Of a stretch of 64,000 bases of DNA, positions 2,946 through 30,973 are shown one piece after another. Origin of the DNA: Zygaena filipendulae (Eukaryota; Arthropoda; Insecta; Lepidoptera; Zygaenidae); NCBI GenBank assembly GCA_907165275.2, contig OU015649.1, forward strand, positions 11,252,001 through 11,316,000, given 5' to 3'. Each line of letters starts with the position of its first letter. Positions within the stretch are counted from its first letter, which is position 1. The notes under the pieces are model-generated. The model was not told the origin of the DNA. It worked only from the letters and a program-made list of their open reading frames with translations, and did not search any database. The position numbers were made by a program, and so were the translations under genes.

Positions 2946-2977
2946 AAAGAAAGAAATTAGTTCGGGGATTAGGTCCA

Positions 2978-5962: not shown

Positions 5963-5969
5963 TATAATA

Positions 5970-6921: not shown

Positions 6922-7059
6922 GTATAGTGATACAAATTTTATTATGCGATATTGCGCTGTATTTCATTTTCCATAGCTCGTGAATCGTGATACCTAGAGG
7001 TTTGATCAAAGCTATGATCATCAATTCACGGCTACATATTGTACGAGTAGGCACCTACA

Positions 7060-9492: not shown

Positions 9493-9597
9493 CAGCCGAC
9501 ATGGCGGTTGTGGGGCGAGGAGCGGGTGGACGGCGCCATCTACACTGTCTACCTCAAGAAGGTTCGCTATCATCGGCCCACGCGCAGCGCTTCAAGT
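9493..9597 (+). CDS. Rgl: Ral guanine-nucleotide exchange factor (Rgl), first recognised coding exon
   Basis: Encodes 35 residues beginning QPTWRLWGEERVDGAIYTVY and ending ...RSASS, the N-terminal segment that precedes RasGEF_N in insect RalGDS-like proteins. The acceptor is TTCCAG at 9,487-9,492 and the donor is AGT|GTAAGT at 9,598. The acceptor is a tandem NAGNAG (CAGCAG), so splicing could include or skip the first Gln. The exon ends in phase 0 and joins exon 30,822. The initiator Met must lie in an upstream exon that I could not fix: ATG at 9,501 is out of frame. The next intron is 21.2 kb and is filled mostly by a giant transposon. Confidence 0.8.
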
Positions 9598-10090
9598 GTA
9601 AGTAATAATACATACCAGCGTGTAATTTTTTTACACCAAAATGTTATTTATTTTAGGTACCTACTCAGTGACCCGTATTTATTATAGTTCCCATCTAGCG
9701 AGAGACTCCATCCATTCGTCTATTAATGGATCTCTACATAAATTAAAAATCGATTAAAAATACCTAACGACTAAAGTTAACGGCACCTAATGAGTAAAGC
9801 GCGGGTAGTGGATGCCTACTGATTATGAGTGTGGGTGGAAGTAACGTCAAGGTTGCTTGCAGTCATGGTGGGTCGCTTGGTACTAAGTTTCGATCCCATT
9901 TCTCTGATCGAAACTCAATCGAAATCTAAGATCGATTTATTAGGTAATTGCGGATCCGCTCTACATAAATGTAAGTATTCATGTCATTTGGCATGTCGTA
10001 ATGTCTACATAATATATTTTTATTTCAAAAGCCTATAATAATTATGTCACACGTTAAATATTATTATTATCTAGGTCATAGTTATAATAT
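9598..10090. other. Intron 5' part
   Basis: Unique-looking intron sequence with no recognised feature up to the Helitron-like repeat at 10,091. Confidence 0.4.
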
Positions 10091-10224
10091 ACTAGTTGTG
10101 TCCCGCGGTTTCACCCGCATTAATTTCAGAGTTCCCGCGGGAATTCTGGGATAAAAAGTGCCTTATGTGTTAATCTGATGTATAAGCTTTATTATTACAA
10201 AGTTTCATTTAAATCTAGTCAGTA
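10091..10224 (-). mobile_element. Left half of a Helitron-like repeat split by the giant transposon
   Basis: Starts ACTAGTTGTGTCCCGCGG with ACCCGCATTAATTTCAGAG and CCCGCGGGAATTCTGGGAT, and stops at ...AAATCTAGTCAGTA. The rest of the same repeat resumes at 28,969 (TAGTTTTTTCGTGAAAGAG, CATCCATCC...). Joining the halves gives the family's normal CAGTAG junction, so this is the insertion target. Confidence 0.8.
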
Positions 10225-10239
10225 CACTGGGAAAAAAAA

Positions 10240-12165
10240 GGGTCGATTTATCGGCTATCCACAGCCGTGTAAACCCGGTACTACGGTTGCAGCCGCGTCA
10301 ACACGGTAACATTTGCCGTGTGACGCTGAAACGGCTACGGTGGACACACGGCTAATTTGCACACGGTACTGCGGTTGCAGCCGTGTCAATCTTGTCAGCC
10401 GTGTCAATTTATCAGCCGTGTCTCAATTTTTCAACACGGCTATTATCATACACGGCTAGATTTGCACACGGTACTGCGGTTGCAGCCGTGTCAATCTTGT
10501 CAGCCGTGTCAATTTATCAGCCGTGTCTCAATTTTTCAACACGGCTATTATCATACACGGCTAGATTTGCACACGGTACTGCGGTTGCAGCCGTGTCAAT
10601 TTGTCAGGCGTGTAAATTTTTTAACACGGCTATAAACAGACACGGCTAGATCAGACACACGGTTACAGCCAACATGGCTGGAGTAGCCGTGTGAAAGGGC
10701 TACCTCATCCATATCGACACGGCTAGTTCAGCCGTTTTCCTACCTAATGACACCGTTGGTTAAGCCGTGTGACGCGGTTTGATGTGACCGTGTGAACGGC
10801 TGTCTGAGCCATGTCAACGCGGCTGTTCCAGCCGTCTCCCTATGTTCATGCGCAGCTGGCGTAGCCGTGTGACGCGGTCTGGAGTGGCCGTGTAAAACGG
10901 TTGCCTCAACTACGTCAACATGGCTATCCCAGCCGTCTCGCTACGACCTTACGCAGCTAGCGTAGCCGTGTGACGCGGTCTGGAGTGACCGTGTAAAACG
11001 GTTGCCTCAGCCACGTCAACATGGCTATCCCAGCCGTCTCGCTACGTTCTTACGCAGCTGGCGTAGCCGTGTGACGCGGTCTGGAGTGGCTGTGTAAAAC
11101 GGTTGCCTCAGCCACGTCAACATGGCTATCCCAGCCGTCTCGCGACGTCCCTACGCAGCTGGCGTAGCCGTGTGACGCGGTCTGAAGTGGTCGTGTAAAA
11201 CGGTTGCCTCAGCCACGTCAACATGGCTATCCCAGCCGTCTCTCTACGTCCCTACGCAGCTGGCTTAGCCGTGTGACGCGGTCTGAAATGGCCGTGTAAA
11301 ACGGTTGCCTCAGCCACATCAACATGGCTATCCCAGCCGTCTCCCTACGTCCCTACGCAGCTGGCGTAGCCGTGTGACGCGGTCAGAAGTGGCCGTGTAA
11401 AACGGTTGCCTCAGCCACGTCAACATGGCTGTCCCAGCCGTCTCCCTACGTCCCTACGCAGCTGGCGTAGCCGTGTGACGCGGTCTGAAGTGGCCGTGTA
11501 AAACGGTTGCCTCAGCCACGTCAACATGGCTATCCCAGCCGTCTCCCTACGTCCCTACGCAGCTGGCGTAGCCGTGTGACGCGGTCAGAAGTGGCCGTGT
11601 AAAACGGTTGCCTCAGCCACGTCAACATGGCTGTCCCAGCCGTCTCCCTACGTCCCTACGCAGCTGGCGTAGCCGTGTGACGCGGTCTGAAGTGGCCGTG
11701 TAAAACGGTTGCCTCAGCCACGTCAACATGGCTATCCCAGCCGTCTCCCTACGTCCCTACGCAGCTGGCGTAGCCGTGTGACGCGGTCTGACGTGGCCGT
11801 GTAAAACGGTTGCCTCAGCCACGTCAACATGGCTATTCCAGCCGTATTTACGCAGCTGGCGCAGCCATGTGACGCGGTTTGAAGTGGCCGTGTAAAACGG
11901 TTGCCTCAGCCACGTCAGCACGGCTATCCCAGCCGTCTTTCTAAGTCCCTATACAGCTGGTGGAGCCGGTGACGCGGTTGAGACAACCGTTTTGTACGGC
12001 TAGCGCACACCGCGTCACACGGCTCCGCCATCTGCGCATGGACGCAGGAGCACGGCTACCCCAGCCGTCCCTGTACGTCCCTACGCCGCTGGAGGAGCCG
12101 CGTAACACGGTTGAGGTCTCCGTTGCAAAACAGTGATCTCAGCTGCATCAATATGGCTACTTAGG
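10240..12165. repeat. Left subterminal tandem array
   Basis: First come about 2.5 copies of a 105-bp unit (starting at 10,361, 10,466 and 10,571), then ten or so copies of a 101-bp unit (starting at 10,861, 10,962, 11,063, 11,164, 11,265, 11,366 and so on to about 11,860), then diverged units to about 12,165. Every unit contains several GCCGTGT/ACACGGC motifs in both orientations. Open frames here are repeat artefacts. By analogy with other DNA transposons these may be transposase-binding sites. Confidence 0.85.
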
Positions 12166-12641
12166 CAATAATAAGTAGCCGTACTGACACGAATGTCTCA
12201 AGATCACCAGCTGTATAGCATAAAGGTAGAAGAGTCAGATATACTTGAACACCTGCGAAAGAAAGCTGCAGTTGAATTATACAAGATAAACACTAAAAGA
12301 ATACAAGAAATCTCTTAAAATTACTGATTTTCCTATTTGGTGAAGAATGATATGATTAGTAAATAATTAACATATTTATTTTAAGATACTGTTCATTTAT
12401 TTTCCAAAATTACTTAAATGGTTTCAAATTTATACAAATTCAAATAATTTATTCAATACACAATTCTAATCCAATTTTTAAATTTATAGACAATTTTAAT
12501 CCAATTATATTTCCTGTACACAAGAAGATTTAGTAAACATGGATCAAATTTAATGAAACTGTGTACTAGAGGATCTCGTTGTCAAACCTGCAGGACGCTG
12601 TGGTACGTTAGTTTTATTAGCTGATGCGTTTCTAAGTCACA
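12166..12641. other. AT-rich interior of the giant element
   Basis: No feature recognised between the left array and the duplicated exon remnant. Confidence 0.4.
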
Positions 12642-12877
12642 CTAACTTAAGGACGTCCTGCCGGTTTTCCAAAGCTTGACAAGCGTGTGCCGTGTGGGCC
12701 CACATAACTTTGCCTGATCGACCACGGGATCCGATCCTGTACGATCCTGTAAATGAGCCTCGACCTCGCAGCGAGTTTTGGCAACGAAAATGAAGCGGAT
12801 GGCTGCGTCGATCCGCGAGGCTTTAGTTCGAACACCGGTTCTTCCCCCGACGAACGACAACGACGACGACTCAGTAT
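12642..12877 (-). pseudogene. SAM-gene last exon, truncated duplicate copy
   Basis: Shares the acceptor (TTTTTCAG before 12,877) and the first about 43 codons with the exon at 14,451-14,839: a Thr-Glu-Ser-Ser-Ser start, then GRTGVRTKASRIDAAIRFIF. Homology stops near 12,748. Beyond that, unrelated sequence supplies about 33 codons and a stop, so the conserved C-terminal part is lost. It is one end of a tandem duplication (copy A, about 12,748-14,440). Confidence 0.65.
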
Positions 12878-13108
12878 CTGAAAAATAGAATTAAATGTTA
12901 ATTAATCAAGCGAATGTTCACTAAACACCAGACGCAAATACTTAAATAACTTTAGAAAAGTGCCTAAAAAATTTGAGGGTTGCCCTCAATTTCCCTGGGA
13001 TCCCATCATCAGATCCTGACTTGGTGACAGTGGGATCACCTCGGGAGTATTATTCTTTCAAATAAAAAAAAATCTAAATCAGTTTATAAATATTATGTAA
13101 ATTATAAA

Positions 13109-13296
13109 TCTAATATATATAAATCACGTGTCACGTTGTTTGTCCGCGATGGACTCCGAAACTACTGAACGGATTTTGATAAAATTTTGCAACCATTTAT
13201 AATATGGTCCAACTTAAAAGATAGGATAGTTTTTATCCCGGAATTCTCGCGGGAACTCCGAAATTACCGCGGGTGAAATCGCGGGGGACAGCTAGT
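13109..13296 (+). mobile_element. Intact 188-bp Helitron-like (Lep1-type) copy
   Basis: Starts TCTAATATATATAAATCACG and ends in a CCGCGGGTGAAATCGCGG hairpin followed by a short spacer and CTAGT. A 5' TC, a 3' hairpin and CTAGT are Helitron hallmarks. It is non-autonomous (188 bp). Its duplicate is at 15,070-15,257. Confidence 0.75.
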
Positions 13297-13309
13297 ATTA
13301 TGTAAATTA

Positions 13310-13960
13310 CGCTGGACTTGAACGCGATGTTTTTTATTACCTTTTTTGGCTGACGTTTCGGCTGAGTTGCATCACGCAGTGGTCACAGGCTGACTAAAGC
13401 ATTGCGGCGTCGATAGCGAGCCGCGCGAGATGATTCTTCATCTACCCACACTGGATGTTCTTTTTTATTAGATGCACTTTTAAGGTCCCTGCACACTACA
13501 CTCACTCGGTCCGCATTCACCGGTTCGGAACGGCCGTAATGATGCGGAACACATCTTGCAACCGGATCTGAACCACTGGATTGAGTTCCATCGTTTGAAG
13601 GTTCTCTCAACTGAACGTCACTACTACGCGAGGATAGTGCGTGAAGCGGTTGAAATAAAGAAACACAAAACTTTCAATCGAGATGACGGATATAGGTTGC
13701 CAACGACATGGGATCCTATAATTCAAAAAACAAAAAATCGTTGCGGCCGTCCGGAACCGGTGAATGCGGACCGAGTGAGTGTAGTGTGCAGGGACCTTAA
13801 AAGTGCATCTAATAAAAAAGAACATCCAGTGAGGGTAGATGAGGAATCTACTCGCGCGGCTCGCTATCGACGCCGCAATGCTTCAGTCAGCCTGTGACCA
13901 CGGCGTGATGCAATTCAGCCGAAACGTCAGGCAAAAAAGGTAATAAAAAACATCGCGTTC
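13310..13960 (+). mobile_element. Penelope-like element fragment with inverted flank
   Basis: A central open segment (13,556-13,745) encodes NHWIEFHRLKVLSTERHYYA then ...REAVEIKKH...NRDDGYRL...WDPII, matching the C-terminal GIY-YIG endonuclease tail of Penelope-like retroelements. Both sides carry about 200 bp of the same sequence in opposite orientation (GACGTTTCGGCTGA plus a TGGTCACAGGCTGAC block), an inverted arrangement common for this class. Truncated and inactive. Confidence 0.65.
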
Positions 13961-14126
13961 AAGTCCCGCGTAATTTACATAATATAATGTGCTCAAAACG
14001 CGAAAATCTAAAAACTTTAATAACAGTTTATAAATGACGCAGTTCTGAGGTAACAAACATAGATAAAAATATTTAAGAATTAAGAACTTTCTTTTTTTGA
14101 AGTCGGTTCAAAACAATATCCATTAC

Positions 14127-14292
14127 CTTTTGAAAGAGCGTGGATTCTTTGTTGCTGAGCCCGTAAGGGCTTCGATAGTGTTTGCAGCTTTGCGGAAGCT
14201 CTGTTTTCTATCAGATCCGAGATTTGTCTTAACCCAGTGTACAGTGCTGAGGGGCTAATATTATAATTTAGATTTGTGAAGTCAATGTTTAT
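14127..14292 (-). pseudogene. SAM-gene penultimate exon, duplicate copy
   Basis: Acceptor CACAG before 14,292 and donor AAAG|GTAATG after 14,127. The 166 bases give 55 codons (INIDFTNLNYNISPSALYTG... to ...QQQRIHALSK) plus one base. It differs from the copy at 15,905-16,067 by one in-frame codon (an extra Leu in SAKLQTLSK) and a few substitutions. Phase is preserved, so it was still spliceable when duplicated. Confidence 0.7.
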
Positions 14293-14450
14293 CTGTGAAA
14301 CAAAAATAAACAAGTTAATTTTGTTAAAATATAAAAACCGGCCAAGTGCGAGTCGGACTCGCGTTGCAAGGGTTACGTGCTTCACTGGTCGGACTTAGTT
14401 CCCACTGTGTAAGTTGCTGCTGCCTATTGAGCAATTGATGTTTTTGTTTA

Positions 14451-14839
14451 TTATTCCACTACCCATGTGCGAAAATCTGTAATCGGCTGCCAAATGTGCT
14501 CACACTGTATTGGGTATCTTAGGTTAAAAACATAGAAACTTTTAAAACATAGGTCTACAGCTTCCAGAATATTAAGACAGCATAACCAAACGTCATCTAC
14601 AACGACGAATGCGCTATTAATGTTCGCCAAGTTCTCACCTATAGCAATAACTAGAGGCTGCACTCCAATACCAGGTGCTGACTTGTTTAAAGCTTCCTTT
14701 CTGAATTCCTGTAAATGAGCCTCGCCCTCGCTGCGAGTTTTGGCAACTAAAATGAAGCGGATGGCTGCGTCGATCCGCGAGGCTTTAGTTCGAACACCGG
14801 TTCTTCCCCCGACGAACGACAACGACGACGACTCAGTAT
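14451..14839 (-). pseudogene. SAM-gene last exon (best copy)
   Basis: Acceptor TATTTTTCAG before 14,839. The first two bases complete a codon with the G that ends exon 15,905, giving D-TESSSLSFVGGRTGVRTK. Then comes a region with hydrophobic core GVQPLVIAIGENLANINSAF, FVVVDD, ILEAVDLCFKSFYVFNLRYP and CEHIWQ. I recall a similar pattern at the C-terminus of uncharacterised SAM-domain animal proteins; this is memory, not a search. The tail after CEHIWQ (PITDFRTWVVE) looks aberrant, suggesting decay. Function unknown. Confidence 0.65.
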
Positions 14840-15069
14840 CTGAAAAATAGAATTAAATGTTAATTAATCAAGCGAATGTCCACTAAACACCAGACGCAAA
14901 TACTTAAATAACTTTAGAAAAGTGCCTAAAAAATTTGAGGGTTGCCCTCAATTTCCCTAGGATCCCATCATCAGATCCTGACTTGGTGACAGTGGGATCA
15001 CCTCGGGAGTATTATTCTTTCAAATAAAAAAAAATCTAAATCAGTTTATAAATATTATGTAAATATAAA

Positions 15070-15257
15070 TCTAATATATATAAATCACGTGTCACGTTAT
15101 TTGTCCGCGATGGACTCCGAAACTACTGAACGGATTTTGATAAAATTTTGCAACCATTTATAATATGGTCCAACTTAAAAGATAGGATAGTTTTTATCCC
15201 GGAATTCCCGCGGGAACTCCGAAATTACCGCGGGTGAAATCGCGGGGGACAGCTAGT
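15070..15257 (+). mobile_element. Intact 188-bp Helitron-like (Lep1-type) copy
   Basis: Near-identical to 13,109-13,296, with the same ends (TC...CTAGT) and flanks. It is a by-product of the segmental duplication rather than an independent insertion. Confidence 0.75.
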
Positions 15258-15289
15258 ATTATGTAAATTACGCGGGACTTGAACGCGAT

Positions 15290-15745
15290 GTTTTTTATTA
15301 CCTTCTTTGCCTGACGTTTCGGCTGAGTTGCATCACGCCGTGGTCACAGGCTGACTAAAGCATTGCGGCGTCCATAGCGAGCCGCGCGAGCAGATTCTTC
15401 ATCTACCCTCACTGGATGTTCTTTTTTATTAGGTGCACTTTTAAGATCCCTGCACACTACACTCACTCGGTTGCCAACGACATGGGATCCTATAATTCAA
15501 AAAAGAAAAAATCGTTGCGGCCGTCCGGAACCGGTGAATGCGGACCGAGTGAGTGTAGTGTGCAGGGACCTTAAAAGTGCATCTAATAAAAAAGAACATC
15601 CAGTGAGGGTAGATGAGGAATCTGCTCGCGCGGCTCGCTATCGACGCCGCAATGCTTCAGTCAGCCTGTGACCACGGCGTGATGCAACTCAGCCGAAACG
15701 TCAGGCAAAAAAGGTAATAAAAAACATCGCATTCAAGTCCCGCGT
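15290..15745 (+). mobile_element. Penelope-like fragment, deleted duplicate
   Basis: Same inverted flanks as 13,310-13,960, but the GIY-YIG segment is reduced to PTTWDPIIQK because of the internal deletion at about 15,470. Confidence 0.6.
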
Positions 15746-15904
15746 AATTTACATAATATAATGTGCTCAAAACGCGAAAATCTAAAAACTTTAATAACAG
15801 TTTATAAATGACGCAGTTCTGAGGTAACAAACAAAAAGATAAAAATATATAACCAAATTAAGAACTTTCTTTTTTTGAAGTCGGTTCAAAACAATATCCA
15901 TTAC

Positions 15905-16067
15905 CTTTTGGAAGATCGTGGATTCTTTGTTGCTGAGCCCGTAAGGGCTTCGATAGTGTTTGCTTTGCGGAAGCTCTGTTTTCTATCAGGTCTGAGATTT
16001 GTCTTAACCCAGTGTACAGTGCTGAGGGGCTAATATTATAATTTAGATTTGTGAAGTCAATGTTTAT
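15905..16067 (-). pseudogene. SAM-gene penultimate exon (best copy)
   Basis: Acceptor TTTCACAG before 16,067, donor AAAAG|GTAATG after 15,905. Its 54 codons plus one base encode INIDFTNLNYNISPSALYTG, SDLIENRASAK and QQQRIHDLPK. It starts in phase 0, continuing ...RVGPHL from exon 17,509, and ends in phase 1, matching exon 14,839. No stop codon. An amphipathic, partly helical segment; no named domain. Confidence 0.7.
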
Positions 16068-16257
16068 CTGTGAAACAAAAATAAACAAGTTAATTTTGTT
16101 AAAATTTAAAAACCGGCCAAGTGCGAGTCGGACTCGCGTTGCAAGGGTTACGTGCTTCACTGGTCGGACTTAGTTCCCACTGTGTAAGTTGCTGCTGCCT
16201 ATTGAGCAATTGATGTGATTGATGTGATGTGCAAGTTAAATAAAAGGTTGTAATTAA

Positions 16258-16615
16258 ACCGACTTCCAAAAACACAAATCTAAAAAAGCTAAAAATAACA
16301 AAATACCGATTTAATCCAAAAGACAAAAACATACGTAATATTATTGGTTTGTGCTACCACTGATCGGTTTGAATTCGGTGACAAGCCCGCTGGTGTCTGC
16401 CCACATGGGTTGTTCTGCTCACGGAGAGCTGGTTGCGGGAGTTGACTTAGCCCATCTACTCCCTCCATATTTGGCTTGTTACCGACTTCATACCGATCAG
16501 TGTTAGCACAAACCAATAATATTACGTATGTTTTTGTCTTTTGGATTAAATCGGTATTTTGTTATTTTTAGCTTTTTATTTTTAGCTTTTTTAGATTTGT
16601 GTTTTTGGAAGTCAG
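16258..16615. mobile_element. Foldback MITE of the CCGACTTCCAAAA family
   Basis: Arms of about 130 bases: AACCGACTTCCAAAAACAC, CCGATTTAATCCAAAAGACA and ATTATTGGTTTGTGCTACCA on the left are inverted on the right. Near-identical foldbacks occur at 25,895-26,210 (partial) and 58,953-59,335. Confidence 0.75.
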
Positions 16616-17472
16616 TTTAAATTTTTTTGTTAAAAATTTGTTTATTTCTTGCTTTTTAGTGAGTCGGTTTGTAATTTATCTAAGTTACAATAGCCTACTG
16701 TCAACTGCTCATAACCTTTTACAAAATATTGCTTTTCCCGATGTAGGGACGTTAATTTTTGAGGAGTTCTGCTGGTACAACACCATCAGTTCCACTTCAC
16801 CATATACATTGTGACGAACATAAATTATTTAGAAACCACATTAAAGTTAACGAATCGGAATTTGTGAAATACCTATTATTTAGTAGTTCCGATGACCATC
16901 TGCGGTCTTCATCATCAGTTCCACTTCTTCAAATCTTACTTTCCAAAAGCAAATAAACGATTTACTATAAAAAATACCCAAATCGCCATAGGTGTGCCTA
17001 TAAATTTTGAAGAGTTCCCTCGATTTCTCCAAGATCCCACCATCAGATCCTGACTTGATGACAATGTGACCAATTCGGAAGTATCCCCTTTCAAACAAAA
17101 AAAACAATTTTCCAAATCGCTCTAACTAGAACCCCTGAAATACGTATTATTGTTGAGTAGTTCTGATGAGCATCTGTGGTCTTCATCATCAGTTCCACTT
17201 CTTCAAATTTTGCTTTCCGAAAGCAAATGAACGATTTACTATAAAAAATACCCAAATCGCTATAGGTGTGCCTATAATTTTTGAAGAGTTCCCTCGATTT
17301 CTCCAAGATCCCATCATCAGATCCCGACTTGGTGGCAATGGGACCTAATTGGGAGTAAACCCTTTCAAACAAAAAAAGAATTTTCCAAATCGGTCCAACC
17401 GTCTTCGAGTAGTCGGTGAACATACAATCGAACATAGAACCTCCTCCTTTTTGGAAGTCGGTTAAAAAAATA
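16616..17472 (-). mobile_element. CCGACTTCC-family repeat body with internal tandem modules
   Basis: Two modules of about 270 bp (each with TCTTCATCATCAGTTCCACT and CCAAATCGCTATAGGTGTG) end in CCTCCTCCTTTTTGGAAGTC, the inverse of the family start. The long minus-strand open frames across it recur in the other copies and are not genes. Confidence 0.65.
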
Positions 17473-17508
17473 GATATAATATGATTCACAAATGTGCCAA
17501 TCTCTTAC

Positions 17509-17696
17509 CAGGTGTGGACCAACTCTCTCCAAACGAAGCAAAGGAAACTTTTTCAAGTACTGTGAAGTTGAAACAGTCATTAAGTACCGCTTGCGAAGTG
17601 ACCGCGTGGCTTTCCAAGCTGTTTCTAGTATGGATGAAGATTCTACTCCCTGGTACTTGGCTATTGTGATAATGTCGCCGTTAATTTTCAGCTCCT
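17509..17696 (-). pseudogene. SAM-gene middle exon
   Basis: Acceptor GTTTTCCACAG before 17,696, donor CACCTG|GTAAGA after 17,509. 188 bases: two bases complete a Glu codon from exon 18,070, then 62 codons including ELKINGDIITIAKYQGVESS, ETAWKATRSLRKRYLM and SQYLKKFPLLRLERVGPHL. No stop. Basic and helical in character. It links in phase to 16,067 on one side and 18,070 on the other, which is the main evidence for a real multi-exon gene. Confidence 0.7.
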
Positions 17697-18069
17697 CTGT
17701 GGAAAACGTTCAAGTATAAGTAATAGTGAAGTTTATTTCATTATAAATTATATATATATACAAATTATATAGGTATTATTAATTATAATTATAAATATTT
17801 ATTTCATAATATAAACACAACACAGATGTTTAGCGTCTGTAAGCATCACCTTAATTAATATGGATATCATATGAGGTGCTCTATCAGCCCTCTTAGTTCA
17901 CAGCCCTGTCATCACGCGGATCCACACCTATAGCCACCACATCTACACTCGGTTCAGCGCGCATGTTAGGGCGAGCCATGTTCGGCCGAGCCACTCGTCC
18001 GGTGTGGATCCGCCCTATTGGATCTACGTACACATTTAAAATTGTATATGAACTATACTGTATACCTAC
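17697..18069. other. Intron of the SAM gene
   Basis: AT-rich, with a short GC-richer patch at 17,880-18,020. No other feature. Confidence 0.4.
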
Positions 18070-18252
18070 CTTCTAAGTTTTGGTCCTGATCAAGTTTTTC
18101 GTCCTGTAATGGCCGCTGTGATAGTTTCCTTTTAAGGCCACGTCGCCCTGTACCAATTTCCTCTGAATCGTCAGATGTCTCTGCTGTAGTGACGGATGAG
18201 GTCTTCTTGTTTACTAACCCTCTGGTCTCTCGCCAAATAGCCTGCCTTTTGC
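18070..18252 (-). pseudogene. SAM-gene charged linker exon
   Basis: Acceptor CTCTTATTTCATGTTAG before 18,252, donor GAAG|GTAGGT after 18,070. 183 bases = 2 + 60 codons + 1. It encodes KRQAIWRETRGLVNKK, an acidic/Ser patch ETSDDSEE and a basic GRRGLKRKLSQR stretch that could be a nuclear-localisation signal. Phases fit both neighbours. Confidence 0.65.
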
Positions 18253-18419
18253 CTAACATGAAATAAGAGTAAGCAATTGGATTCAATCATTCTATACAGA
18301 CATTGGTAGGTACGTACCTACTCATAATTGCACTGGATAGATTTTTTGAAGCTTTTTCATATGTTGCCACCCTCACATTTAACCTAGGTATTTATTATAT
18401 ATTTTTTTTAGTTCAGTTC

Positions 18420-18480
18420 AGTTCAGTAGGTAGTTTCGGAGTTTATCGCGAACATACATCGTGACACGAAATTTTTATAT
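18420..18480 (-). mobile_element. Short Helitron-like remnant
   Basis: GTAGTTTCGGAGTTTATCGC followed by CATCGTGACACG matches part of the Helitron-like family. Confidence 0.4.
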
Positions 18481-18799
18481 ATAGGTAGGTACCTAAATAA
18501 GATTTTGTTTGACAGATTACCCCTAGAAAATGTGTCTTAGGTAACTGTTGGTACGGAATGTTGTTGGTTTCGGTGGTTTGATTATTGGAACTCGGCCTAA
18601 CTTGATGTCTTATCACTTTTTTTATCACACTTCAATTGATTTAAAAATTATTCATTTTTTATTGGTCAAAGTACAGCTATGGCATGGATTCAGTTTTTTT
18701 TTAATGTTTCATCATGTCTTTTATTATATAGAACATAGAACGCATCAAAATAGGCATAAAATGTAAATATAATTTTGTGTAAGATATATTCCAACTTAC

Positions 18800-18867
18800 C
18801 AAGAAATGCTTCGGCGTATTTCTCGAAACCCCACGCGTTCAACAGTTCGCTTAATTCGTGACACAAA
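18800..18867 (-). pseudogene. SAM-domain start exon
   Basis: Acceptor GTTTCTAG before 18,867, donor CTTG|GTAAGT after 18,800. 68 bases encode LCHELSELLNAWGFEKYAEA followed by FL. The pattern L..L..W.F..Y...F is typical of the first helices of a SAM domain. The phase (one trailing base) fits exon 18,252 directly, but then most of the SAM domain would be missing, so an exon may have been lost or unrecognised between them. Confidence 0.5.
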
Positions 18868-19403
18868 CTAGAAACAAAACAAATCTATCATATTTTTTTA
18901 CAGTACCATGGAGCCGTTACAAAGTGGCGCGAACTTTTGCACTAACTAGGACGCGTAAAAAAGGCGAGGCGCCATCTTTTTTTAAAACTGTCTACTTTAT
19001 TAAATATGTAGGTAGCACCTACCTACCGACGTTTGGCACAACGTGTTTATGCTTCAATTCAATATTTGTTTGCAAAACAATGGTATATCAAGTAAATATC
19101 GTTTTTTCCTTTAGGGGGATGCGCTAACCTCCAAACGGGTTCGCAGTTTGATAATGCTCCACTATTACTGCACACATGAGTATTACAATTAAAATTAAGT
19201 ACCTACTCACCTCATGATGCCGTCATAGGTTTCATTCAGGACACAAACACTCTATTTACCGGGAAAATATCACAGCATCTAATTTTTAGACGTAAGCAGC
19301 GCACTCGACGTTAGGCAATGTGATGTACAAGTATTAGCACGAAAGTGACTAGTGAGCGAAATGTGGAAGGGATAGCTGCGCATGGGTACAGTCGCGCACC
19401 TAA
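18868..19403. other. Interior of giant element, nothing recognised
   Basis: Expected to contain the 5' end of the SAM gene, but no exon could be identified. Confidence 0.35.
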
Positions 19404-20404
19404 TGGTAAGTTCACACGCGTGCGTTCAACTCTATGCTACGTTCACACGCGCGCCGTGCAGCCCGGCGGGCTGCCTGGCGGGCTGCGCGGCATGCAGCCC
19501 GTCCCGGGCCGGCGGACATTCAAGCTGTTTACACGCACGCCGTCGTGTCAGTCAGTGCCAGAATGGCGAGCAGTGAGGATCTCGGTGTTGTTGCTGCCAT
19601 ATCCTTTGGCTTAACTTATTTTTATTGGAAAAAGAAACAAAATTATGACCATTCCGCCATGTTGTAATATCCGATCGTAGCGACTTTCTTAGCAACGTTG
19701 AATGAAGATCCACTCGTCGCGAAAGCGCGGGACAGACTGACTGCCCGCGCGCGTGTAAACAGTCACCGGGCGCCCGCACATTCATCCTTTGAACTTTGCC
19801 AAAAAACCGACACTTGCCCGATTCGCGGCATTCACGTTCACAGGCGCGTTCACGGGCTCGGGCGTACCGTTTACACGCTCGTGAATGTGAATGTGCACGT
19901 TGAATGTAGAGTTGAACGCACGCGTGTGAACTTACCACTACATTCAACGTGCACATTCACATTCACGAGCGTGTAAACGGTACGCCCGAGCCCGTGAACG
20001 CGCCTGTGAACGTGAATGCCGCGAATCGGGCAAGTGTCGGTTTTTTGGCAAAGTTCAAAGGATGAATGTGCGGGCGCCCGGTGACTGTTTACACGCGCGC
20101 GGGCAGTCAGTCTGTCCCGCGCTTTCGCGACGAGTGGATCTTCATTCAACGTTGCTAAGAAAGTCGCTACGATCGGATATTACAATCGTTCATAATTTTG
20201 TTCCTTTTTCCAATAAAAATAAGTTAAGCCAAAGGATATGGCAGCAACAACACCGAGATCCTCGCTGCTCGCCATTCTGGCACTGACTGACACGACGGCG
20301 TGCGTGTAAACAGCTTGAATGTCCGCCGGCCCGGGACGGGCTGCATGCCGCGCAGCCCGCCAGGCAGCCCGCCGGGCTGCACGGCGCGCGTGTGAACGTA
20401 GCAT
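19404..20404. mobile_element. Near-perfect ~970-bp palindrome of Harbinger-like sequence
   Basis: Bases 19,434-19,917 are inverted at 19,922-20,404 with very few differences. Each arm encodes MASSEDLGVVAAISFGLTYF followed by YWKKKQN (19,562 onward; and 20,276 downward on the minus strand), resembling the N-terminus of PIF/Harbinger nucleases. The left copy (19,404-19,938) is itself bounded by inverted GGTAAGTTCACACGCGTGCG ends. Many overlapping open frames here are the same codons read on both strands. Confidence 0.7.
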
Positions 20405-22249
20405 AATATAATAATTATAAGTTTACCTCTGAAATGTCCTAGTCCCTACAGTATGGACTAACTCTGAAATGTCCTAGTCCCCACAGTTGGCACTAACTCA
20501 ATGGCGGTTTTCTTATTTTTTTACGGCGTTCCATATTGGTTGACAGTACTGTAAAAGTTTTATTGGCTGGTCACAATACAAAATATGTATTTTTTTCCCA
20601 ATCCATATTCCATAACGCACATACTGGCCAGAATTAAAAAAGTTAAGGTAGTGCGGGCGAAATTCACCCGCGATTTTGACAATCAGTCTCTGTAGTCTGT
20701 GTTCGGTTAGTGAGCGGCTCGCGCCGTCTCGCATAAATATGTCGAAATATAAGTAATCGGTTAGTGTTTATATCAAGTGTTATATATCAAATCATGGACT
20801 AATTATTGGCCCATGATCAAATTGATGGAAATTAAATAAGGTTTTTAGTTTTAATATTTAATTTAGCCGCATGACAAAATTTTCAGTAAAAAAAGTCAGT
20901 ACCTTTTAATGACGCAATAATTTGTTTACGGCTGTCAAACAAAAAACAAATGAAATACTTTATTTGTTTTCTAATATTCATTTGTTCAAAACTATGTGAA
21001 AAATCAATTGTTTTGTAGCAAATTTACTCATGATATAATTTTAAATAAATTATATTGGTGTTAAATCTTCTAAATAACCTACATTTTTGTTTTTGTTTAA
21101 CCACGGTAACGCTAGGTATGGCTGTTTCACGGCTAGCCGGCACGTATTTTGTCAATAAATGTTTGTTGTGAAGTCATTATTAGTTTTTTGATGGTGTAAT
21201 TACATAAAATCGACGCCTATACTGGCCAGTTACATCTTAGTGTATGTGAAATGTGTATGTGGCTATAAATTTAGTGTAAACCAGTGACGGATATGAAAAA
21301 GGACCTCATCTTTGGTAAGTAGGTAAATAAAATATATTCAAAATCACACTTTATTTCTTACTTTAAGTTTTTATTTTTTATTTATCGTCATTAAACTACC
21401 TACACATAGACATATAAAACATAATATAAATTTGTTCGGAGAGTGGGTGTATAAATTTGTTTGGTAGTTCCGAGGGTCACGGTGCGCGGACCAATGAGGG
21501 TGGCGCTTTCCATGGGTTAATTAATTTAACCAAGTAATTTTAGAATATATTTAAATAAATAGTAAGTCTATCACTGAGCGTAATGTGGAGGATATAAGCT
21601 ACTGTCGCGCGCGCAAACAATGCACGTCATACACCATTTTTGTGCATGTCTTTTCAAAATATTATTTTTTTTAGATATATTCACTATCTACTAAAAATAG
21701 ACTAATAAAAAACCCAACAATAACAAAGAACCTCAAACTTAATAAAACCAATAATAATGAACGGCAATAACAATACACTTTAGACCATGACTGTACAGTC
21801 AGAAGTCCGTGGAGCGTCGTATCGGGGCGGGGGACGGAATACGACGAGCTTGCCAACCGGCGCTACGCACGCACACCCCTCGTCCCTCTAGCCCCCCTGT
21901 GAATCCTATTTTTTGACTTCTGCGCATTGATTTTGCGCAATAACGGTCAGCGCTAGAGTGTTGTTCGCTGTTCCTTCCGCGCCGGCGCGCGGCGGTCAAT
22001 GGTACCTACTCTCAGCGCGTGGCGTCGCGCGTCGGTTGTCCACCAATCACAGCGCGGCATGACAAAATCACCGCCGCTCTTGCGAGCCAGATCCGGAAGT
22101 TCCTATATACCTACCTACGTACCTACTACACCGTGGTAGTTGGTACTACTGCGTAAATCATGTCCGTGTCTGCTATGTCGTATGTTCTTTGCGGCCGGCG
22201 GCAAAGAACCATTAATTGGACGCAATATTTCGTACTTATTTTCATCATC
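20405..22249. other. Interior of giant element, mixed
   Basis: Contains a short direct repeat (CTGAAATGTCCTAGTCCC at about 20,428 and 20,463) and a GC-rich patch at 21,790-22,130. No gene recognised. Confidence 0.35.
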
Positions 22250-22647
22250 GTTACTTTGGACTATAGAGTATAGACTAAGTATATATAATTAACAAAAAGT
22301 TCCTCTAATTCTAAACCAAATGATTGCACACTTTTGTGCCCCTGCGTTGCTCGTTGCAACTGTGCCTGGATTGCGACATCTGATTTTCTCGGGATAAGAT
22401 ATTTTTTCATATCCCCAACCAGGCAATAAACTGAACAATACTTGGACTAAGAGGTTAAACGAAGTTTTGCACTGGCTTAAAGTCGCGTTTTTCAAGCAAA
22501 TTCAATTAATAGAGGTTTAGATGCAATATTAATCATAGAATCGTATAACTTGATCCCATTGATTAATTGTTTTGTAATATTCTCTACTCCTGTCATAATG
22601 GGAAATAAGACAAGAGCCGTTTTTAAATCAAAATTATCGGTAGCCAT
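22250..22647 (-). pseudogene. LTR-retrotransposon gag remnant
   Basis: Begins at an ATG (complement of 22,645-22,647). The reading continues through a segment resembling the N-terminus of insect retro-gag proteins (LINGIKLYDSMINIASK), with several stops, to a downstream QAQLQRATQGHKSVQSFGLE motif (about 22,310-22,350) that is typical of the gag 'xxFGxxIExLF' region. Multiple in-frame stops and frame changes show it is dead. No protease, RT or LTRs were seen nearby. Confidence 0.55.
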
Positions 22648-23057
22648 TTTACTTTCTATCGACTCACTGCAATGTACCTACCTAGGTACCTACTAACTAG
22701 CCTACTAAGGAATTAATTTTTCTATATAAACTATGAATATCGTCCACTAGTCGATTAATTAGTAAGGTATCACTAACATTTAATTCTGATCTTGTTATCT
22801 TAGATTGGATACTTACCTAGTAAATAGTAATAAACTTAGACTATCACTGGCAGATAGCTGATGTTATAAAGAGTAACTTAGTGCTTTACTTTTTGTCTCG
22901 GAATTCCCGCGGGAACTCCGGAATTGACGCGGGTGAGGCCGCGGGGCACAGTTAGTACTATACTATAAAGATATTATGCCCTATCTTTGGGACAAAAATG
23001 ACGAAATTTTCCTGAAGAAAAATGAGGGCTTTCAAGTGTTAGTGAGTTTATATAAAA
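22648..23057. other. AT-rich interior with a Helitron-like end at 22,880-22,956
   Basis: CCCGCGGGAACTCCGGAATT, ACGCGGGTGAGGCCGCGG and a degenerate CACAGTTAGT terminus mark a plus-strand family copy. The rest is featureless. Confidence 0.5.
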
Positions 23058-23310
23058 ACTAGCTGACCCCCGCGGTTTCACCCGCGGTGGTTTCGGAGTT
23101 CTCGTGGGAGTTCCGGGATGAAGGGTGTGTCACTGTGTCACTCAGGATTACTTTAGTTTCTTATAAGTGAAAGAATTTTCAAAATCGGTGCAGTAGATTC
23201 AGATATTACAAACTCCGGAGTTTCCGCGGGAATTCCGGGATGGGACAAAAGTACCCTATGTCACTCAGGACCACTGTAGCTTCTTTTTAGTGAAAGAATT
23301 TTTGGCCGCA
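23058..23310 (-). mobile_element. Helitron-like repeat copy
   Basis: Starts ACTAGCTGACCCCCGCGG with ACCCGCGGTGG, then two diverged blocks of GAGTTCCCGCGGGAATTCCGGG type and AAAATCGGTGCAGTAG. Confidence 0.6.
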
Positions 23311-25060
23311 AAGGACAATTTTTTGGATACTACAATATACAATACTGAAGCCATCCTCGTATTCCTTCGACTCCGTCGCGCCGCGCTTCATTCAGTAACT
23401 AAAAGTTAGGATAGTAGGTATGATGCTTCAAATTTGCTTCTGAATGACTTAGGAGACAAAATTAGCCAAGTGTAATACCTAACTACCGACTTAGGTAGGT
23501 ACCTACATGGTACCTACCTACTACGCTGCTGAAGGTACTTAATCGTGGATTCTACTCTTTTATTATAGTAGGTACTAGGGAGGTAGGTACCTACTTACCT
23601 ATCTATATATTATAATATAGATGTGAAATGAAATTTTAAATAAATTTGCTACAAAACTATTGATTTTTCGTAAAGTTTTGAACAAATGAATACCTACCTA
23701 CCTCAATCATTGATTTACTACTCAATGACCTCAATGAATACCTACTACCTATTAGAAAAGAAATTGAACAGTATACAAATTAGTTATTTCATTTGTTTTT
23801 TTTATCAGTCGTCATTGCAAATTAAATTGCGTCATTCAAAAGTTACGGATTTTTTTCACTGGGGCTCATTGGGGTATAAAAAGCCAGTAAAATAGGTGGG
23901 TAAAAGGCCGACCTCTTTCGTCTGAGAGGCCGACCTTTTTTACTTCGTATGCATCGACGTCACGTCGACGTAGAAAAATTACCAATCTGTTTCGTCTGTA
24001 GACAACGTGTGTCTACTGGACGCTACCGGTATAAAAATTCCGTAGGTAGGTAGGTATACTAGGTAGTCACCGTTTGGGTAGGTACCTACTGGACGTTTCG
24101 GCCTCCAGAAGACTTCTATTGATGTATTTATGAGGAATACTAGCTGTTCCCCGCGGGTATCATCCGCTTTAATTTCGGAGTTCCCGAGGTAGTTCCGAGA
24201 TTAAAAGTACCTACCTACATGGATGGTAGGTACCTACCTACCTACTTTTTATAAATTTTTGGTTGAGCAGTCTTGAATCTTGAGTCTGCACTACAGTCTG
24301 CACTCTGCAGTCAGCAGTTGTGCTTTTGCGACTTGTGACCTTCATTTTTTTTTATAATAATAATCCACTTCACAACACACAGATGTACTTGATCCCACAC
24401 AGCACACTAAGCTATAAGCTTGTGTCGTGGAAACCAAACAAACGTAGTATATACTACACATATTATTACATATATATTATACTATAGATATACATATACA
24501 TACATATATACACACCCATTCAAGTAGAAATGCGGGAACATTGGGAACAAGTTTGAACATGTTCTTTACGGGCTACGAATTACGATATAGCTTTAAATAT
24601 CTCAAAAATAACATTTATGAGGAATATTTTTAATAAATAAACATGTCCCTACGTGTGTTCAGTCTCTGAAAGACAACTTGACCGTTTAAAAAAATTTATT
24701 ATAATATAGTCTATAAATACATTGTTTCAAATTTTAATATTGCCAATTGCCATTGAATTTTTTGATGGATGCTTACGTTACTAACCTACGATGCTAACCT
24801 AACATGGTGCATGAAATTTTTAAATATTAGAATTTTTCTCTGTACATATTACCTATAGTTAATTCATTATTGAATAATCTATTCTGTTGTCCACGTCGAT
24901 TGTATTGTCGTTTTTGCGAGAGAGTGAGTAGGTACCTAGCATTCAACGACTGCCATTGGCTGGGCGGCTGGGCCGCGAGCCGCGCCACGCGCCACGCAAT
25001 ACGCATCCGCCCGGTGGTGGCGGATGCGTGATGCGACATGGCGCGGTGCGATGCGTTTCT
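23311..25060. other. AT-rich interior of giant element
   Basis: Rich in GTAGGTAGGTACCTACC runs, with a Helitron-like fragment at 24,139-24,220 and, at its end, a GC-rich hairpin (ACGCATCCGCC / GGCGGATGCGT, centred on about 25,018). No gene recognised. Confidence 0.4.
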
Positions 25061-25067
25061 TTTTAAC

Positions 25068-25910
25068 CGACTTCCAAAAGGGAGGAGGTTCTATGTTCGA
25101 TTGTATGTATGTTTTTTTTTTATGTATGTTCACCGAGTACTCGAAGGCGGTTGGTCCAATTTGGAAAATTCTTTTTTTGTTTGAAAGGGTATACTCCCAA
25201 TTAGGTCCCATTGCCACCAAGTCGGGATCTGATGATGAAATTTTGGAGAAATCGAGGGAACTCATCAAAAATTATAGGCACACCTATAGCGATTTGGGTA
25301 TTTTTGATAGTAAATCGTTCATTTGCTTTTGGAAAGCAAAATTTGAAGAAGTGGAACTGATGATGAAGACCACAGATGGTCATCGGAACTATTCAACAAT
25401 AGTACGTTCTGATTGGAGCGATTTCGAAAATTGTTTTTTTGTTTAAAAGGGGATAGTCAAGATCTGATGGTGGAATCTTGGAGTAATTGAGGGAACTCTT
25501 CAAAAATTATAGGTACACCTATAGCGATTTTTGTATTTTTATAGTAAATCGTGTATTTGCTTTCGGAAAGCAAAATTTGAAGAAGTGGAACTGATGATGA
25601 AGACCACAGATGGTTATCGGAACTACTCAATAATAGGTATTTCACAGGTTCCGAATCGTTACCTTTAATATGGGTTCTAAACAATTTATGCTCGTCACAA
25701 TGTATATGGTGAAGTGGAACTGTTAGTGATGTACTAGGAGAACTCCTCAATAATTAACGTCCCTGCGTCGGGAAAGGCAATATTTTGTAAAAGGCGATGA
25801 GCAGTTGACATTAGGCTATTGTAACTTAGAGAAATTGCGAACTATGTCACTTAAAATCGAGAAATAAACAAAATTTTAACAAAAACATTAAAACCGACTT
25901 TCAAAAACAC
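25068..25910 (+). mobile_element. CCGACTTCC-family repeat, inverted copy
   Basis: Starts TTTTAACCGACTTCCAAAAG with GGAGGAGGTTCTATGTTCGA and two ~270-bp modules in the orientation opposite to the copy at 16,616-17,472. Contains a T10 tract where the 60-kb copy has A49. Confidence 0.65.
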
Positions 25911-26210
25911 AAATTAAAAAAGCTAAAAATAAAAAGCTATAAATAACAAAATACCAATTTAATCCAAAAGACAAAAACACACGTAATATTATTATTGGTT
26001 TGTGCTACCACTGATAGGTAGGTATGAATATGGAGGGGGTAGATGGGCTCAGTCGACTCCCGCCACCAGCTCTTCGTAAGCAGAACGACCCAAGTGGGCA
26101 GACACCAGCGGGCTTGTCACCGAATTCAAACCGATCAGTGGTAGCACAAACCAATAATAATTACGTGTGTTTTTGTCTTTTGGATTAAATCGGTATCGGT
26201 CTAGGTTTGA
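25895..26210. mobile_element. Foldback MITE of CCGACTTCC family (partial)
   Basis: Left arm begins AACCGACTTTCAAAAACAC. The right arm is inverted (CAAACCAATAATAATTACGT, TTGTCTTTTGGATTAAATCG) but truncated near 26,210. Confidence 0.6.
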
Positions 26211-26744
26211 ACGAGATCTAGTAAGTAGTTTTTTTAATACGTCATAGATCGTAAACCGCAATAAAAAATTACAATATTATTAAAACATCGATCAAAGTTA
26301 CAACGAACTACAAGAACTTTTATATTAATGTTACTTGCTGCTACGGAACCCTTCATGGGCGAGTCCGCATTTGGCCGCTTTTTTCTAGGGTGGATTCTCT
26401 CCTTAGACTGCATGTCTGAAGCTGAACATGCATCAGATATCAGTGAGTCACATTTATCAGATAAGACACTCATGTGGCAAAAAAGGATTATGTTCACTGA
26501 AGGAATGTGAACGGCTTCAGGGTTAGGTTGCAGACAGTAAAAACGGCGTGTTATTCCTTCTTTTGTGTAATAATTATTTGCAAAATTTGTATAATTATTT
26601 GCAAAGCTCATACTAAGCGGTTCGGATTATAACGCCCTCTGTCGGCTTAATCCTAAACTACTTGCTAAATTAGCTGATGATGATCTTACCTAGATAAACC
26701 ATCTAGTGGTTCCAGTCTGGAATCAAAGATGGCGCTGTTATTAA
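26211..26744. other. Interior next to right array
   Basis: Contains a short dispersed-repeat remnant (CTACGGAACCCTTCATGGGC at about 26,341). The 125-codon minus-strand open frame crosses it and lacks convincing splice sites, so no gene is called. Confidence 0.35.
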
Positions 26745-28960
26745 CACACAGCCATTCCATAAGAGGCTAACGTAGCCAAGTGTTGATAAGCACACGACCT
26801 GCTGTATCGTGTCTAAACGGCTCCGACAGCCGTGTTTGCAAGATAATTAATGACACGGCTAACGTAAACAAGTTTTGTTTTGCACACGGTCCGCTGTACC
26901 GTTTAGGTATATAACGGCTACGACAGCCATGTTTGCGTGGTTCATTTCTGACACGGCTAACGTAGTCAAGTGTTGATAAGCGCACGACCTGCTGTATCGT
27001 GTCTAAACGGCTCCGACAGCCGTATTTGCAAGATAATTAATGACACGGCTAACGTAAACAAGTTTTGTTTTGCACACGGTCCGCTGTACCGTTTAGGTAT
27101 ATAACGGCTACGACAGCCATGTTTGCGTGGTTCATTTCTGACACGGCTAACGTAGCCAAGTTTTGATAAGCACAAGACCTGCTGTATCGTGTCTAAACGG
27201 CTCCGACAGCCGTGTTTGCAAGATAATTAATGACACGGCTAACGTAAACAAGTTTTGTTTTGCACACGGTCCGCTGTACCGTTTAGGTATATAACGGCTA
27301 CGACAGCCATGTTTGCGTGGTTCATTTCTGACACGGCTAACGTAGCCAAGTTTTGATAAGCACAAGACCTGCTGTATCGTGTCTAAACGGCTCCGACAGC
27401 CGTATTTGCAAGATAATTAATGACACGGCTAACGTAAACAAGTTTTGTTTTGCACACGGTCCGCTGTACCGTTTAGGTATATAACGGCTACGACAGCCAT
27501 GTTTGCGTGGTTCATTTCTGACACGGCTAACGTAGCCAAGTTTTGATAAGCACAAGACCTGCTGTATCGTGTCCAAACGGCTCCGACGGCCGTGTTAGCA
27601 AATTTAATATATTACACGGCTAACGTAAACAAGTTATGTTCTGCACACGGCCAGCTGTACCATTTACAGAACGGTTCAGACAGCCGTGTTAGCAAGTTTA
27701 ATATATGACACGGCTAACGTGGCCAGGTTTTGATAAGCACACAACCAGCTGTACCCTTTATAGAACGGCTCCGACAGCCGTGTTAGCAAGTTTAATATAT
27801 GACACGGCTAACGTGGCCAGGTTTTGATAAGCACACAACCAACTGTACCCTTTATAGAACGGCTCCAACAGCCGTGTTAGCAAGTTTATTGTATGACACG
27901 GCTAACGTAGCCAAAGTTTGAAAAGCACACGACCTGCTGTATGGTGTCTTAACGGCTTCGACAGCCGTGTTTGCAAGTTTATTATATGACATGGCTAACG
28001 TAAACAAGTTATGTTCTGCACACGGCCAGCTGTACCATTTACAGAACGGCTCCGACAGCCGTGTTAGCAAGTTTAATATATGACATGGCTAACGTGGCCA
28101 GGTTTTGATAAGCACACAACCAGCTGTACCCTTTATAGAACGGCTCCGACAGCCGTGTTAGCAAGTTTATTGTATGACACGGCTAACGTAGCCAAGGTTT
28201 GAAAAGCACACGACCTGCTGTATCGTGTCTTAACGGCTCCGACAGCCGTGTTAGCAAGTTTAATATATGACACGGCTAACGTGGCCAGGTTTTGATAAGC
28301 ACACAACCAGCTGTACCCTTTATAGAACGGCTCCGACAGCCGTGTTAGCAAGTTTATTGTATGACACGGCTAACATAGCCAAGTTTTGACGAGCACACGA
28401 TCTGCTGTATCGTGTCTAAACGGCTTCGACAGCCGTGTTTGCAAGTTAAATATATGACACGGGTAACGGGAACAAGTTATGTTATGCACACGGCCAGCTG
28501 TACCGTTTATAGAACGGCTCCGACAGCCGTGTTAGAAAGTTTATTATATGACACGGCTAACGTGGCCAAGTTTTGATAAGCACACGACCTGCTGTACCGT
28601 GTCTATACGGCTCCGACAGCCATGTTAGCAAGTTTAATATATGACACGGCTAACGTGATAAGCACGCGGTGCACCGTACCGTGTCAACAACGTTACCGAG
28701 GCCGTGTTTGTTGTGTGCACACCGCTCCGACAACCGAGTCAAAAGGTAGCCGTGTAATTTTACACGGCTAGGATTTCAACACGGCTGAAAAAATTACGAA
28801 CATGGTACACGTAACCGTCTAAAGCGGCTATCTTAACCGCTTACACGGCTACGTTTCATGTAGCCGTGTACACGGTTCTTTACACGGCTGCCAAACTCGG
28901 TTGTCAGAACCGTTTGCACGGCTACGCAAAACGTAGCCGTGTTCAAAAGCCGTGTATTTT
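26745..28960. repeat. Right subterminal tandem array
   Basis: Four near-identical 190-bp units begin at 26,951, 27,141, 27,331 and 27,521, and an earlier partial unit begins near 26,760. Each consists of two diverged halves of about 95 bp. From about 27,600 the array continues as about 92-bp units (GACACGGCTAACGTGGCCAG). All units carry ACACGGC/GCCGTGT pairs. The unit sequence differs from the left array but shares the heptamer. Confidence 0.85.
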
Positions 28961-28968
28961 TCCCAGTG

Positions 28969-29068
28969 TAGTTTTTTCGTGAAAGAGTAAACATCCATCC
29001 AACCATCCATCCATCCATTCATCCATACATTCTTACAAACTTTCGCGTTTATAATATTAAGTAGGATA
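28969..29068 (-). mobile_element. Right half of the split Helitron-like repeat
   Basis: Resumes TAGTTTTTTCGTGAAAGAG, then (CATC)n and ACTTTCGCGTTTATAATATT, the usual distal end of the family interrupted at 10,224. Confidence 0.8.
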
Positions 29069-29701
29069 CATCGATTTTTCGAGGGCCGTTTTTAGATTGT
29101 TTTTCAATGCACATTATGTTTAGGACGGTGTCACCTATCCTTGAAAATAAGTTGTGTGTTTAAAAACCGACACTCGTGGCCATGATTAATAGCCGTCGTT
29201 ATTGTATTGTTTAATACAAAGCAGCAATAAAAAATTGCACGCTGTAATTAAAAGTTTACATAAAAACGTAGCATTATATTATAATAACAATTGAGTGTAG
29301 TACCTACGAGTAAGTATGCACGAGTAGGCAACCGGTGCTGTCCATAGGTATAATATTTTGTACTGTGTACCTGCTGTGTCTGATTGCGCAACGAACGACA
29401 ATTTAAAAATTACATATCCTGAGTAAATACGAGTGGTGGTTAACTAAACGAGTAAATTACAGTCCAACACTCAACTTCTAATCTTCCTACTATTTGATGT
29501 TGCTTTATGGGTTTGATGATTAGAATTTTATAATACGTACAAAACGTACAAAAACAACTAACCATAAGCACAGCTGGTAATTTATAATTTATAATATTAC
29601 TAGTACCATAAGTAACAAAAAGCATTTATCTTATTCTCTAGACAGATGATAAGACCCATCTGGATGAGATGAAATGAGTATTTATGATTTAGTTTTATAA
29701 T
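29069..29701. other. AT-rich intron stretch
   Basis: Nothing recognised. Confidence 0.4.
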
Positions 29702-30821: not shown

Positions 30822-30973
30822 GAGTCCGATGATGAGATATCTCACCTGGAGTGGGAAACAGTGCGCGTGCGCTTCGTGAAGGCGGGCTCCGTCGAGCGGC
30901 TAGTGGAGGCGCTGGCCACCGACGACGGCGAGCTCGAGTCCACCTACGTCAACGTGTTCCTGGCTACATACCG
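30822..30973 (+). CDS. Rgl: Rgl exon: start of RasGEF_N domain
   Basis: Encodes ESDDEISHLEWETVRVRFVK, then GSVERLVEAL and DDGELESTYVNVFLATYR. This is the LTxxx...ETVRVRxxKAGxxxxLVxxL start of the RasGEF_N module that stabilises the catalytic domain of Ral/Ras exchange factors. Acceptor TTGTTCAG, donor TACCG|GTACAC. It begins in phase 0 (joins ...RSASS) and ends in phase 2 inside an Arg codon completed at 31,827. Very GC-rich and codon-biased compared with the surrounding intron. Confidence 0.9.

Follow-up and report, generated by a model that had tools for sequence, protein, structure and literature searches.

What kind of element fills most of an intron in a Ral regulator gene of the moth Zygaena filipendulae, and how recently did it arrive? 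The DNA in question is a window of 64,000 nt (assembly GCA_907165275.2, contig OU015649.1, positions 11,252,001-11,316,000, forward strand), and the surrounding gene is Rgl (Ral guanine nucleotide dissociation stimulator), recognised by its RasGEF and RA domains, with top-ranked named relatives from moths and butterflies (Loxostege and Ostrinia at 91% identity). The exons stop near 9597 and restart near 30820, leaving an intron of ~21.2 kb, and the element's 18,744 bp take up ~88% of it, as a sequence-only reading of the window had proposed. We conclude that this stretch is very probably a copy, itself non-autonomous, of a giant CACTA/EnSpm DNA transposon that was active very recently and of which one copy recently landed within the Rgl intron. 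At 16-29 kb, the family is large for a DNA transposon.

The element is bounded by exact inverted ends. The 12-bp sequence CACTGGGAAAAA occurs just twice in the window, at 10225 and 28968, and both copies adjoin TA, in agreement with the CACTG-type termini first described there. Inside each end lies an array of ~2 kb. The motif ACACGGC/GCCGTGT is found 38 times in 10225-12170 (0.8 expected, Markov model mean) and 42 times in 26759-28968 (0.6 expected), against 5 times in the other 59.8 kb of the window (4.3 expected under the same model), so the subterminal arrays claimed for both termini are real. The left tandem array has a 101-bp unit in 12.2 copies (10763-11978) and the right a 190-bp unit in 10.0 copies (26765-28656). 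Seven 12-mers, end sequence included, are common to both; the two therefore share a motif but are distinct as arrays.

The same ends recur across the genome. A search of 366 Mb in 56 contigs (labelled C2, C3, C5 and so on) used exact end patterns, which derivatives with changed ends would escape, so that its counts are lower bounds: at least 31 left and at least 30 right CACTGGGAAAAA-type ends (the right-end search returned 48 rows, 18 ends being reported twice). Reversed control patterns of both ends had no match in the genome. Twenty-nine left and 29 right ends pair into elements of 15,979-29,431 bp, 595,764 bp in total, and this range, together with the 18,744 bp of the window copy, rules out a miniature inverted-repeat transposable element (MITE; roughly <1 kb, non-coding), as had been argued from size. 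Two left ends on C18 and one right end on C22 have no partner. Arrays at unrelated loci had been named as the finding that would undo the single-element interpretation; instead, 29 of the 31 left ends pair with 29 of the 30 right ends. Every pair carries a 2-bp target duplication (TA in 23, TG in 4, CA in 2), and a third matching base never occurs. Each is a pyrimidine-purine step, a class that accounts for 25% of the dinucleotides in the left flanks (21 loci). Segmental duplication or assembly artefact would also yield near-identical copies, as these are; with flanks that differ among all 29 loci, a separate 2-bp duplication and the same two end points at each, and the window copy's left flank formed by an older repeat cut at that same base, we give this explanation essentially no credence and read the copies as transpositions.

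Two further observations concern the ends. The unpaired left ends on C18 (C18:9629204 and C18:9651291) point towards each other across 22 kb, with no right ends to match them; the transposase pieces that lie between are split and decayed, perhaps a sign that two elements have fused. The two end patterns matched 1 and 2 viral contigs, two of which, read in part, look like chance, and an end-pattern scan of bacterial and archaeal genomes gave no match.

At the window locus itself, the flanks rejoined with a single TA align with three repeat copies in the window, at 15259-15120 (75.0% over 140 bp), 13298-13159 (74.3% over 140 bp) and 57696-57582 (75.7% over 115 bp). The proposal that the flanks are halves of one repeat thus holds as far as these alignments go, but they extend just 4 bases beyond the junction (TCAG-TA-GTTT). 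Because of this short extension, and because the first two of the three form a duplicated pair within the element, the one-TA empty site is suggestive when judged from the window alone. The genome-wide duplications at 29 element pairs make it firm, and with it the single insertion event first deduced from the paired ends and the flank repeat.

The window copy lacks a transposase, and the suggestion to look for longer relatives carrying one was borne out by six. A 22,877-bp copy on C5 has an open reading frame (ORF) of 865 residues, and the same frame, full length and 100% identical, is present in six of the 29 elements (type B, intact, 22.4-25.8 kb). Two others (C15, C50) carry a decayed transposase and the remaining 21 (type A) give no transposase match. 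The versions on C15, C50 and C18 share 94% identity over residues 347-865 and contain stops; one C18 copy is split into two frames. A type-A junction sequence is found at 21 places in the genome, each assigned by coordinates to a separate paired element, the window copy among them, whereas the six type-B elements do not have it; we infer that type A arose by deletion from the transposase-bearing form. Twenty-two translations of the window element (six frames of 12000-26501; one frame per strand of 10225-12224 and 26600-28968) held no Pfam family at the cut-off, the best score being Tudor-knot (E 0.0013, 19 of 20.8 bits, below cut-off). No Pfam transposase appears there because the copy has none. 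The earlier statement that a recognisable transposase is missing is accordingly right for the window copy and its 20 fellow type-A copies and wrong for the family, six members of which have the intact frame.

The protein of the sister copies (~860 residues) is predicted to carry C2H2-like fingers at its N-terminus and a BAH-like fold at its C-terminus, on either side of a RAG1-like DDE core that shows the pattern C(2)C/H(3)H. Two confident structure predictions were obtained. The predicted fold of residues ~128-717 matches the core of RAG1, which in vertebrates is the enzyme cutting antibody genes, and RAG1 and Transib folds were matched; no CACTA transposase is among the solved-structure matches listed. 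D322, D415, C435 and C438 are invariant in 30 sequences, and H654, H658 and E678 are kept in at least 90%; in a 61-row alignment H658 and E678 fall below 90%. The homologs match CACTA and Plavaka profiles, and Pfam Transposase_21 matches 15 of the 61 homologous transposases at E up to 0.1 (best 6.7e-5); it was not listed for the family's own ORF in a Pfam search at E up to 10. The modelled BAH fold at the C-terminus is likely to be correct; that it reads histones is a tentative idea. Eight relatives without stops, at 31-38% identity over most of the length, lie in the same genome, which indicates that several families of this lineage coexist there. No ends were found within ~8 kb either side of the 38%-identical relative on C42. 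A protein-database match, P0122 (jgi source), on a 24.8-kb contig is 95% identical to the type-B ORF; it may come from a closely related host or reflect horizontal transfer.

Four lines of evidence place the family in CACTA/EnSpm. First, CACTGGGAAAAA at both ends conforms to 5'-CACTR...YAGTG-3' in inverted orientation. Second, the duplication of 2 bp in 29 of 29 pairs lies within the 2-4 bp of the superfamily. Third, short subterminal repeats stand in both orientations at both ends (38 + 42 copies versus 5 elsewhere). Fourth, the D, D, C(2)C, H(3-4)H, E transposase pattern, tested on the sister-copy protein since the window copy has no protein, is recognisable across 30 sequences, its two D and two C residues invariant and its H and E residues kept in at least 90%. 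We hold membership in CACTA/CMC with very little doubt, and the part of the sequence-only reading that drew on CACTA-like ends and arrays is upheld. Its counter-argument, that TA duplication speaks against CACTA/EnSpm, fails: 2-bp duplications are reported for animal CACTA elements, among them SmTRC1 with 7 of 14 copies (PMC1636069) and CACTA/CMC elements (PMC6004678), and TA duplication for the fungal EnSpm-like ESTA elements (PMC12730594), and six of the 29 duplications here are TG or CA. Given these published elements, the superfamily is already known. A Tc1/mariner-type element of unusual size would account for the TA duplication of the window copy and of 23 of the 29 loci; insertion into TG at four loci and CA at two, the C(2)C/H(3)H pattern, the RAG1/Transib fold match and the 15 Transposase_21 matches make it extremely improbable. 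Placement in the Transib/RAG-like group rather than CACTA proper draws on the RAG1-like fold. Transib and ProtoRAG elements duplicate 5 bp, not the 2 bp found in 29 of 29 pairs, and the CACTG ends with long subterminal arrays, the profile matches of the homologs and a companion gene with SAM as its single Pfam match leave this placement improbable as well, if less so than Tc1/mariner. Of the ProtoRAG pairing of RAG1 with RAG2, the RAG1-like fold is seen here; the resolved part of the companion, downstream of its start, matches SAM alone in Pfam. Within CACTA/EnSpm, the notion of an undescribed lineage does not survive at the superfamily level, given the Transposase_21 matches, and is possible for the family and its domain make-up.

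How recently the family moved can be read from its right ends. Over the first 1,800 bp, compared in 21 of the 30 ends, the pairwise difference averages 1.8 positions among 15 type-A copies (0-8) and 0.67 among the six type-B copies (0-2), and the window copy differs from the six type-B ends by 17-18. A type-A copy on C3 is 99.87% identical to the window copy over 9,180 ungapped bases, with 7 mismatches and 10 gap openings across the two further matched pieces. What chiefly sets the two apart is a 999-bp fold-back in the window copy. The fold-back is absent from both sister copies read at that site (C3, C5) and is a later, nested insertion. From the near-identity of copies it follows that the family spread very recently. 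Type A might instead consist of old relics, long immobile, since it lacks a transposase and the window copy's SAM gene is damaged; near-identical ends in the 15 copies compared and the C3 match over 9.2 kb speak for recent spread, and gene conversion among dispersed loci is a possible but less likely cause of such identity. We consider old relics very improbable and retain recent spread.

The companion gene was modelled on the C5 copy, the one type-B copy read through, where it adjoins the transposase upstream on the same strand. The seven-exon model (621 residues, ending 44 nt before the transposase ATG) lacks a first exon, and its GT-AG splice sites were picked by eye to hold the frame; the protein begins with a SAM domain above the Pfam cut-off and has no other Pfam match. 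Five of the seven exons are retained in the window copy, with an altered end. The window model matches one distant thrips protein (E 1.6e-8, 42% over 22% of the query), which fits its third splice junction by eye. Proteins of Aphis and Exocentrus that match the transposase bear the name SAM domain-containing, and the C42 relative has, by eye, a SAM-like exon upstream of its transposase; neighbours or fusions of SAM and transposase thus seem to recur. A ACCGACAT array at C42 was not counted as subterminal because it adjoins the SAM-like exon. Beside that exon stands a 45-copy array of a 10-bp unit (ACCGACATCA) at 4804-5258 of the L099 stretch.

These parts suggest a cut-and-paste cycle. The type-B transposase would bind the ends and the ACACGGCT-rich arrays of both types, perhaps through its N-terminal fingers, excise the element and, with a 2-bp stagger, insert it at a pyrimidine-purine dinucleotide. 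That the type-B enzyme moves type-A copies in trans is quite probable, because these have kept their two ends and their arrays. The SAM protein may act as an accessory factor by assembling along the arrays, and the BAH-like tail may bias target choice through histone marks. More broadly, one might envisage an animal CACTA lineage, from aphids and moths to sea cucumber, in which a RAG1-like core is joined to a C-terminal BAH histone reader and giant subterminal arrays let a SAM partner polymerise on them; the lineage would still be active in a living lepidopteran, moving 16-29 kb into pyrimidine-purine dinucleotides. Taken whole, this is a speculative and rather doubtful picture. If true, it would parallel, independently, the pairing of RAG1 with the RAG2 PHD finger, a transposase steering itself to marked chromatin. 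With its clean ends and 29 mapped insertions, six intact and identical transposase genes and the two structure predictions, the family makes CACTA cutting and joining, steering by a chromatin reader and the role of the SAM partner testable.

Known systems resemble the family in part. In plant En/Spm elements, too, a short motif is repeated subterminally in either orientation, and deletion derivatives are mobilised in trans; their duplications are 3 bp long and their arrays shorter than here. RAG2 has a PHD finger, in place of which the Zygaena transposase has its BAH-like tail. With RAG1, Transib and ProtoRAG the family shares the predicted core fold and, as stated in PMC12730594, the order D, D, C(2)C, H(3-4)H, E; it differs in its 2-bp duplication, its ends and a SAM-domain companion instead of a RAG2-like one. 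The same paper groups CACTA transposases with Transib, in a group that includes RAG1. ESTA elements, as described there, share TA duplication and an EnSpm/Transib-group transposase with RAG1 similarity by profile search; they are fungal, carry a TET/JBP gene and are reported with TA, whereas the Zygaena family is from an insect and uses TA, TG and CA. Animal TRC elements such as SmTRC1 have a Transposase_21-related DDE transposase, inverted ends, 2-bp duplications and spliced genes, and differ in their CCC ends (PMC1636069); the Zygaena family adds its 16-29 kb, ~2 kb of array per end, the SAM companion and the predicted BAH-like C-terminus. None of the terms SAM domain, zinc finger and BAH appears in that paper's main text. 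CAC..GTG ends and 2-bp duplications are also described for the CMC-NA elements of polydnaviruses and wasps and for the tunicate ENS1_Cis (PMC6004678); the CMC-NA elements are MITEs with no known autonomous partner. Among the literature matches listed, which exclude Repbase, none combines size, arrays, SAM partner, pyrimidine-purine targets and BAH-like tail, and none mentions a BAH domain in any transposase or a SAM partner of CACTA in its title or abstract start, subscription papers also lying outside that scope. What appears to be new is this combination within one very recently active family.

Table 1. Features of the window and transposase relatives elsewhere in the genome.
Feature	Position	Strand	Remarks
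Complete non-autonomous element, type A	10225-28968	+	18,744 bp; 1 of 21 type-A copies; from ends, pairing, shared junction
Left terminal inverted repeat CACTGGGAAAAA	10225-10236	+	exact
Right terminal inverted repeat CACTGGGAAAAA	28957-28968	-	exact
Left subterminal array	10264-12170	.	38 ACACGGC/GCCGTGT, both orientations; 105-bp + 101-bp units
Right subterminal array	26765-28960	.	42 ACACGGC/GCCGTGT in 26759-28968; 94/190-bp units
Left copy of target site duplication (TA)	10223-10224		2 bp
Right copy of target site duplication (TA)	28969-28970		2 bp
Left half of older repeat, insertion target	10089-10224	+	
Presumed right half of older target repeat	28969-29070	+	first 4-6 bases alone align with other window copies; far end a rough limit
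Type-A junction	12739-12759	.	counterpart of ~2624-7789 of the 22.9-kb element, whole transposase ORF included, missing
First recognised exon, SAM-domain gene remnant	18800-18867	-	next two exons of 22.9-kb copy missing here
Exon, SAM-domain gene remnant	18070-18252	-	
Exon, SAM-domain gene remnant	17509-17696	-	
Exon, SAM-domain gene remnant	15905-16067	-	
Last exon, SAM-domain gene remnant	14451-14839	-	C-terminus altered versus 22.9-kb copy
Duplicate of exon 15905-16067	14127-14292	-	from 1.8-2-kb direct duplication
Truncated duplicate of last SAM-gene exon	12745-12877	-	
Nested fold-back element (near-perfect palindrome)	19405-20403	.	999 bp; apparent duplication TAAT; arms 99-100% complementary
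Dispersed 1.2-kb repeat within element	16252-17468	.	
Dispersed 1.2-kb repeat, inverted copy within element	25060-26196	.	
Dispersed 1.2-kb repeat outside element	58949-60239		49-A run at 60143-60191
Rgl exon before intron	9490-9597	+	edges approximate; matches homologous proteins
Rgl exon after intron	30820-30974	+	edges approximate; matches homologous proteins
Transposase relatives	C42:197329, C3:5492323, C22:9370451, C31:411751, C20:3928478, C31:648753, C22:469357, C2:9553530		

Three minor features complete the window. The dispersed 1.2-kb repeat holds an internal tandem duplication of ~274 bp. Outside the element, a 220-bp tandem repeat in 1.9 copies lies at 3811-4228, and a 276-residue open frame at 45082-45912 (minus strand) resembles a Tc1-type transposase in its HDNARPH and SPDINPIEH motifs.

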